Below, in pieces: positions 5,888-26,455 of a stretch of 46,152 nt of DNA. Both the position numbers and the translations under genes were made by a program. The stretch is from Candidatus Gastranaerophilales bacterium. Its GTDB lineage: Bacteria > Cyanobacteriota > Vampirovibrionia > Gastranaerophilales > Gastranaerophilaceae. Each line of letters begins with the position of its first letter. Position 1 is the first letter of the stretch. Below the pieces are notes generated by a model, which was not told the origin of the DNA, did not search any database, and was given only the letters and a program-made list of their open reading frames with translations. The DNA is taken from positions 1 to 46,152 of the forward strand of contig CALUWK010000011.1 in assembly GCA_944324475.1 (NCBI GenBank), read 5' to 3'.

Positions 5888-6915
5888 TGAGCAAAATTGC
5901 TGTTTATCTGGAGACAAATTTGAATAATTATACTTTAAATGATGTTTCTTATGAGTTGCTTACAAAAGCGAGACAATTAAAAACTTCGGCTAAAGAAATT
6001 GATTGTAAAGACAATGATTTTGAAGTAATAGGCATTGCTTTAAGTAAGAATATCGATAAAGATTCGGTTAAAAAAGCTTTTTGCGCAGGTGCAGATTATT
6101 TTGTTCATATTAAAGACAGTTCTTTGGAGATATTTTCTCAGACTGTATTTTCACTTTCTTTTGTTGAATATTTTTCTTCTAATCCTTGTGAGATAATTTT
6201 ATTTCCTGCAACTCCTCAAGGAAGGATTGTTGCTCCAAGAATAACCACAATGCTTGATGTCGGACTTGTAGCAGATTGTACGGGTTTGGATTTGATTAAG
6301 AAAAATGATAATATAATGCTTGCTGCAACACGACCAACATTTGGTTCGGAATTGATGGCAACTATATTGTCAAAGAAAAACCCGCAATGTGCAACTGTCA
6401 GACCAAAAACTTTTCAGGTCGATTTTACTTCGGATTTAGGTGATATTTCTGATAGATTTTCTGAATATGAACTTAAATATCCTATTAATGAAACCAGAAT
6501 AAAATTACTTCGATCGTTTTTTGAAAAAGAAGTTGAAGGCGTTGACTTTGATAATGCAAAGATTATACTGGCAGGCGGGTATGGTTTATATATGGGAAAA
6601 AATGTTGAATATTTTGAAAAATTGGAAAATTTAGCAAAAAAAATTAATGCAAAATTTGCCGCAACAAGAAAAGTCGTGGATTTGAATTTGGTACCAAAGG
6701 CTTATCAGGTTGGTCAAACGGGTTCTACAGTTAATCCTGATTTATATGTTGCTTTTGGTATTTCGGGCGCTATTCAACATATGGTTGGTTCTAAAAATGC
6801 AAAGAAGATTATTGCCATAAATTCTGATGAAAACGCTGATATATTTAAATATGCCGATTATAAGATTGTTGCTGATGCTAAAAAAGTTATAGATGAGTTA
6901 TTGAATTATTTTTAA
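5887..6915 (+). CDS. etfA: electron transfer flavoprotein alpha subunit
   Basis: Alpha (FixB-type) subunit of ETF, 342 residues. The C-terminal FAD-binding domain shows the family motifs: ILAGGYGLYMGKN (normally G-R-G), then YQVGQTGSTVNPDLYVAFGISGAIQH at about residues 277-302, then IIAINSDENADIFKYADY. The N-terminal half is the Rossmann-like domain that pairs with EtfB. The ATG overlaps the etfB stop (ATGA-type coupling), which implies equal production. The gene is followed by about 200 bp without a plus-strand gene, which holds the leftward small RNA candidate. A bifurcating or a conventional type cannot be decided from these motifs alone. Confidence 0.95.
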   Translation: MSKIAVYLETNLNNYTLNDVSYELLTKARQLKTSAKEIDCKDNDFEVIGIALSKNIDKDSVKKAFCAGADYFVHIKDSSLEIFSQTVFSLSFVEYFSSNPCEIILFPATPQGRIVAPRITTMLDVGLVADCTGLDLIKKNDNIMLAATRPTFGSELMATILSKKNPQCATVRPKTFQVDFTSDLGDISDRFSEYELKYPINETRIKLLRSFFEKEVEGVDFDNAKIILAGGYGLYMGKNVEYFEKLENLAKKINAKFAATRKVVDLNLVPKAYQVGQTGSTVNPDLYVAFGISGAIQHMVGSKNAKKIIAINSDENADIFKYADYKIVADAKKVIDELLNYF

Positions 6916-6917
6916 AA

Positions 6918-6991
6918 TAAAAAAAAGCCGTCATAAGGCGGCTACTAGACTTGGGGAGGAGGTTTTGATAAAGAGCATTTGCTCTAAATCA
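6918..6991 (-). ncRNA. candidate Yfr1-like small RNA with CU-rich single-stranded motif
   Basis: Reading the minus strand from about 6991 there are three elements. First, a hairpin AGAGC-AAAT-GCTCT (6985-6972). Second, an unpaired stretch containing CCTCCTCCCC (6962-6953). Third, a terminator hairpin AGCCGCC-TTAT-GACGGCT (6943-6926) followed by a run of T (6925-6919). The U-tract lies on the minus side only; on the plus side the hairpin is followed by ACTAGAC, so this is not an etfA terminator. Two hairpins flanking an exposed CU-rich motif is the layout of the cyanobacterial sRNA Yfr1, and the CU-rich core would pair with Shine-Dalgarno sequences. The promoter is not clear (TTGACG at 7019-7014, possible TATATC at 7003-6998), so the 5' end is a guess. 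Confidence 0.5.
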
Positions 6992-7119
6992 AATTTTGAT
7001 ATATTTTTATTCTCGTCAAAAATAAAAATTTACTTTAATTTTATTTTTTAATTTCATCTAAAAGTTGTAATTTTTAATAAAAATATAAAAAATGCGTCAT
7101 ATTTGTTAAAATTATTAGT

Positions 7120-26383: not shown

Positions 26384-26455
26384 ATACCACACCTTTTTTT
26401 ATGTTTTCGACATAATGTGTTTGGTACTTTAGCGATTTTTAAGAAATATTTACTT

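Follow-up and report, generated by a model that had tools for sequence, protein, structure and literature searches.

A conserved candidate small RNA of the anti-Shine-Dalgarno kind behind a sigma28-type promoter in Gastranaerophilales

A free-standing element on the minus strand

The window that we analyzed is a stretch of 46,152 nucleotides (nt) from the genome assembly of a Candidatus Gastranaerophilales bacterium (contig CALUWK010000011.1). On its minus strand, at ~7003 to 6918 and beside etfA and an alpha/beta hydrolase gene, lies a free-standing candidate small RNA (sRNA) gene of ~80 to 85 nt. Three parts follow one another along the RNA: a 5' hairpin with covarying arms, then a core that stays unpaired (AACCUCCUCCCCAAGUC), and last an intrinsic terminator. 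Transcription is expected to start near 7003 (7000 to 7006), judging from the -10 box and the layout of sigma28 promoters. Hairpin 1 (6993 to 6964; TTTGAT-TT-AGAGC-AAAT-GCTCT-TT-ATCAAA) varies in sequence among copies while its pairing is kept, as seen in folds and covariation. It leads into the motif ACCTCCTCCCC / ACCUCCUCCCC (6963 to 6953), unpaired according to direct reading and the fold, which is part of the core AACCTCCTCCCCAAGTC (6948 to 6964). This core is an anti-Shine-Dalgarno (anti-SD) motif, near-invariant across Gastranaerophilales and predicted to be unpaired. The terminator stem-loop AGCCG CCTTATGA CGGCT (6926 to 6943) is evident in the sequence, the fold, and the alignment, and it is followed by a U tract (6914 to 6925) that is conserved among aligned copies and places the RNA 3' end near 6918.

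Predicted structures agree with this reading. When the 109-nt minus strand was folded with RNAfold, the hairpin, open motif, and terminator were obtained with a z score of -3.7 relative to shuffles. Folding of 73 copies returned the hairpin in nearly all of them, along with the open motif and the terminator. The mean unpaired probability of the motif was 0.87, with lower values of 0.5 to 0.7 in some copies. Hairpin 1 probably shields the 5' end of the sRNA and holds the motif open.

The direction of the element can be read from its terminator. On the plus strand, an A run precedes the stem and no T run follows it, so the terminator would be active leftwards only. A first-pass annotation of this DNA had described an orphan leftward terminator and, with it, a leftward sRNA gene in which two hairpins surround an exposed CU-rich motif; both descriptions are borne out, the latter by sequence, RNAfold, and conservation. 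The element that it had boxed at 6918 to 6991 is real, but the box misses the first bases of hairpin 1 and leaves out the promoter at 7037 to 7010. Taken by itself, the terminator does not exceed chance in such AT-rich DNA (5 terminator-like sites in 15 kb versus 5.0 expected), and the case for the element therefore rests on comparison among genomes.

Conservation, covariation, and distribution

The 109-nt stretch had a strong match in all 27 of the other sampled genomes of the genus, nearly always over most of its length, and the 3' core AACCTCCTCCCC(A/G)AGTCTAG plus terminator matched across the whole order Gastranaerophilales. Conservation on this scale excludes a chance origin. With a covariance model, the RNA was found in 275 of 286 Gastranaerophilales genomes (E ≤ 1.5e-14), and the order of hairpin, motif, and terminator proposed at first pass is thus kept in hundreds of relatives. 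Among further class families, f9 and f15 yielded copies, identified by direct reading, in which the AACCTCCTCCCCAAGTC core is unchanged and the terminator stem differs; in other orders of the class this stem is GCTACCG/CGGTAGC, at the same position. An exact 19-mer containing the core occurred in 17 records among 84,980 species genomes. Three of these are unrelated strays; the other fourteen come from Gastranaerophilales, from Vampirovibrionales, or from uncultured cyanobacterial MAGs, with Vampirovibrio chlorellavorus NCIMB 11383 and Candidatus Adamsella avium among them. The RNA was absent from the Cyanobacteriia that we sampled, where the weak model matches that we inspected were attributable to chance. 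Such matches, with E values between ~1e-7 and 1e-3 in Cyanobacteriia and in certain families of the class, resemble coding sequence or bare terminators, which is why we counted only matches below ~1e-8 or those that had been inspected.

Within the genus, hairpin 1 covaries. The mean energy of its native arms was -11.4 kcal/mol compared with ~-7.7 kcal/mol for re-paired arms, and none of 500 permutations reached the native mean. Similarly, 19 cells of the genus alignment had changed on both sides of a pair, versus 10.6 in shuffles (0/500), while two further measures (pairs with double change and additional pair types) did not rise above shuffles. Covariation support for hairpin 1 is clear, with a small number of variable pairs as its source. 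The terminator stem is invariant within the genus and hence uninformative in this respect. On the order-wide alignment, RNAalifold recovered the terminator alone because hairpin 1 cannot be aligned between families; for this reason hairpin 1 was evaluated by permuting its arms and by counting pairs within the genus instead.

Genomic context and coding potential bear on what kind of element this is. Conservation of the neighboring etfA and alpha/beta hydrolase genes ends at the genus, and other genera retain the RNA among other neighbors. Furthermore, no open reading frame (ORF) is kept across copies in any frame of either strand. Since the neighbors change and no ORF is kept, the element is neither a 3' untranslated region (UTR) of etfA nor a small coding gene. 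An argument can still be made for a functional element on the plus strand, either the etfA 3' UTR or GGGGAGGAGG as the ribosome-binding site of a small ORF, given that the plus strand also folds well and that in 78 of 84 copies a possible start codon (ATG, GTG, or TTG) lies 3 to 12 nt beyond GGGGAGGAGG. We find this explanation very improbable: the U tract and the sigma28-type promoter point leftwards in the copies, and outside the genus etfA is not even a neighbor. The reading of GGGGAGGAGG as a ribosome-binding site was rejected, since it is followed by no conserved ORF (10 to 17 of 84 copies per frame).

Copy number raises another alternative, namely, that of a dispersed repeat or mobile element devoid of regulatory function. 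Several genomes do carry multiple and sometimes tandem copies, such as three at ~362-nt spacing in L043. However, the genus mostly has one copy at a syntenic place, the promoter is kept together with the RNA, the hairpin covaries, and the core is near-invariant across the order and in further orders, which leaves this alternative with almost no probability. In other genera of family f1, we observed a second type of RNA at L122, L124, and L129 (matches near 1501 to 1585), consisting of CAACTATCCCCAAATCTCCTCCCAAGATTATTG and a terminator without a sigma28-type promoter.

A sigma28-type promoter and the distribution of FliA

The consensus for sigma28, the FliA family of sigma factors, is TAAAGTTT-N11-GCCGATAA. 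Upstream of the candidate sRNA, alignment and matrix score identify a -35 box, TAAAG (7033 to 7037, minus strand), 17 nt upstream of the CGA of a -10 box, GACGAGAA (7010 to 7017, minus strand), that departs from the consensus GCCGATAA in the window. The arrangement TAAAG-N16/17-(G)NCGA, which agrees with the sigma28 consensus, lies upstream of 77 of the 84 copies, 29 to 55 nt before the core, and a few copies from the class have TCAAG in the promoter.

A matrix derived from the sRNA promoters also recognizes flagellin promoters. Scores of at least 15.9 were obtained before 19 of 30 flagellin loci in the same genomes, compared with ~0.4% of background 400-mers. When the matrix was trained without the window copy, the sRNA promoter ranked as the ninth-best sigma28-type site in its assembly. 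The top-ranked sites there are mostly intergenic, 48 to 140 nt upstream of genes, and the genes behind them include a flagellin. Other genes behind top sites presumably encode an HD-GYP-type response regulator and a prepilin, names that we assigned from sequence. The sigma28-type promoter, absent from the first-pass annotation, points to flagellar control of the putative transcript.

Other sequences near the promoter, and elsewhere in the window, are worth recording. The element TTACAACTTTTAGATGAAATT (7050 to 7070, minus strand) lies upstream of the -35 box, and most copies of the genus have a similar sequence, TTACAmCTTTTrGAkGAAAT, 13 to 17 nt upstream of this box, which may be a regulator site. 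Copies from family f3 have TTTACAAAGCGTTACAAA-like direct repeats in its place. A further sigma28-type promoter, the tenth best in the assembly, is found at 26431 to 26387 on the window's minus strand, 48 nt before an ORF of 1,281 amino acids.

FliA was found above its curated cut-off in 52 of 58 sampled genomes. Among families of the class, FliA and the RNA occur together in f9 and f15; f8 and f13 have neither FliA above the cut-off nor the RNA; and in f10, f11, f12, and f14, FliA is present and the RNA was undetected. We did not find fliA in the assembly from which the window derives. Yet ~16 kb around fliA in a related genome (G001), including the triose-phosphate isomerase gene (tpiA), is likewise unmatched in that assembly, and so the missing fliA is probably an assembly gap. 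In four genomes (G028, G029, G033, and G034), flagellin was not detected while FliA and the sRNA are retained, a pattern suggesting functions other than in the filament. One of them, G033, has flagellar rod-like genes close to fliA. In the window's own assembly there are two sets of export-apparatus homologues (FlhA, FlhB, and FliP/Q/R), on contigs C1, C3, and C14 versus C15, one of which is a second type III-like secretion set alongside the flagellar set. Partial or complete sets of flagellar genes have been described for gut Melainabacteria (PMC3787301).

Proposed function and relation to known RNAs

Our preferred reading, to which we assign a probability of about 0.7, is that the element encodes a trans-acting, sigma28-dependent sRNA of ~80 to 85 nt that represses mRNAs with strong GGAGG SD sequences, where both transcription and targets are inferred. 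FliA-bound RNA polymerase would transcribe the gene once the flagellum reaches a late stage. The exposed CCUCCUCCCC would then pair with the SD region of mRNAs whose SD is unusually strong (GGAGG or AGGAGG, ~4% of genes in this genome), and pairing there would block the 30S subunit. As a consequence, strong-SD genes would be turned down in motile or late-assembly cells, analogous to what has been proposed for CjNC1 and CjNC4 in Campylobacter.

The composition of the core and of the host's translation start sites is compatible with such a function. Within the core, the anti-SD sequence CCUCC continues into UCCCC. GGAGG precedes the start of 59 of ~1,550 called genes in the assembly (versus 2 in a control interval), and the genes open to the motif would thus form a small strong-SD class. 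The idea that an anti-SD motif could discriminate among mRNAs, put forward at first pass together with the remark that many genes lack an SD, fits these numbers; of the 1,549 ORFs that were called in the assembly, 514 are without any SD match reaching 4 nt. Because a search of the assembly with Escherichia coli Hfq as the query returned no homologue, pairing is probably Hfq independent.

Target prediction with the CU-rich motif, which the first-pass annotation had envisaged, was less informative. Ranking of targets in the assembly did not produce a coherent set, and low-energy partners showed no enrichment of flagellar structural genes (P = 0.12). A search for a 12-nt complement at a conserved target found none. 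Sites that differ from the 12-nt complement TTGGGGAGGAGG by at most one mismatch were mainly the sRNA itself and scattered sites; the sole such site in the assembly outside the sRNA lies within a histidine-kinase gene, in the ATP-binding region. Near-matches to TTGGGGAGGAGG were also screened for an RNA that could pair with the candidate in the way that Yfr2 complements Yfr1, and none was found. Genome G042 has ~50 TTGGGGAGGGGG sites on many contigs, apparently a dispersed repeat of its own. With predicted targets incoherent, repression by SD occlusion is deduced from the motif and from the precedent of CjNC1 and CjNC4.

The invariant core, at 17 nt, is longer than SD pairing needs, and the excess length could reflect a protein ligand or a second function. 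Decoy RNAs often occur in tandem copies. An RNA that binds protein instead of pairing with mRNA, for example a decoy for a CU-binding RNA-binding protein, would account for a core whose length and strict conservation exceed the needs of an SD complement, for the incoherent target set, and for the tandem copies in some genomes. Nevertheless, the region of the RNA that is most accessible carries the anti-SD stretch of 16S rRNA extended by CCCC, and comparable CCUCCUCCC RNAs of Rhizobiales have been described as anti-SD RNAs (PMC3927594). Although the assembly contains a match to CsrA, the motif lacks GGA and is therefore not a CsrA decoy. We give the protein-binding explanation a small but appreciable chance.

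The first-pass annotation had likened the element to Yfr1, an sRNA of the sister class Cyanobacteriia in the same phylum, and had guessed at homology. The likeness is one of layout: Yfr1 loci have a 5' hairpin, an exposed CU-rich motif with CUCCUC, and a terminator hairpin, such that the motif is single-stranded between two stem-loops. Because layout and CUCCUC are common to both, the RNA may work like Yfr1. Homology is another matter. The Rfam model of Yfr1 (RF01116) matched 85 Cyanobacteriia genomes and no member of this class, without a match at E ≤ 10 on the window element or the Vampirovibrio copy; the core is ACCUCCUCCCCAAGUC in aligned copies as opposed to the Yfr1 motif ACUCCUCACAC; and six Yfr1 loci that we inspected have CACTCCTCACAC and no sigma28-type promoter. 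On these grounds, identity with Yfr1 was rejected. A Vampirovibrionia orthologue of Yfr1, that is, a roughly constitutive housekeeping sRNA inherited from a Cyanobacteriota ancestor, would be in keeping with the complementary distributions of the two RNAs in our phylum sample. Pairwise alignments of the RNA to Yfr1 cut both ways, with one of three exceeding all 300 shuffles and two at shuffle level. Expression of Yfr1 is high and nearly constant (PMC6778093), which the sigma28-type promoter disfavors here. We judge orthology of this kind improbable. Descent of both RNAs from one ancestral CU-rich sRNA, which would have been under sigma28 control in the flagellated class and constitutive in the photosynthetic line after loss of the flagellum, is a speculative and rather unlikely scenario.

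An Rfam scan of the window element returned no family at its cut-off. The best weak match was BjrC1505 (E = 0.16), and such matches were dismissed as chance. A literature search, covering few subscription journals, found no description of an sRNA in this bacterial group. We classify the candidate as a new sRNA family of the anti-SD kind under putative sigma28 control, so far uncatalogued in Rfam. To our knowledge, the sigma28-dependent sRNAs of E. coli have no anti-SD core. These sRNAs (UhpU, MotR, FliX, and FlgO) resemble the candidate as an sRNA layer below FliA but are UTR derived, have been studied with Hfq, and have targets that include coding sequences (PMC10578931).

Close parallels in design come from distant bacteria. 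CjNC1 and CjNC4 of thermophilic Campylobacter are paralogous, short, intergenic, sigma28-dependent sRNAs with a highly conserved pairing region predicted over ribosome-binding sites and a variable downstream terminator stem; they differ in length (44 nt), have no described 5' hairpin, belong to another organism, and are likened here by description rather than sequence (PMC4626219). Their dependence on fliA was measured, their targets (sigma54 flagellar genes) were tested in an E. coli reporter, and they repress reporters without Hfq (PMC4626219). Alphaproteobacterial CCUCCUCCC RNAs (SmelA075/SmelA099, NfeR1, and "cuckoo") share the same near-invariant anti-SD motif amid variable stems; they carry it in the loops of three or four hairpins, whereas the window RNA has a single motif, in a linker (PMC3927594, PMC10746234, PMC10253847). 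LhrC of Listeria, a multicopy sRNA that surfaced among CU-rich pairing RNAs, is induced by the LisRK system under envelope stress (PMC4132741).

If our interpretation is correct, gut Melainabacteria and Vampirovibrio would share a class-wide family of regulatory RNA, and the control of flagellar genes would be tied to the translation of strong-SD mRNAs. The sRNA offers a concrete probe for the regulation of motility in bacteria that are mostly uncultured. As a sister-class counterpart to Yfr1, it would also make the origin of a near-universal cyanobacterial RNA a question that can be addressed with data.
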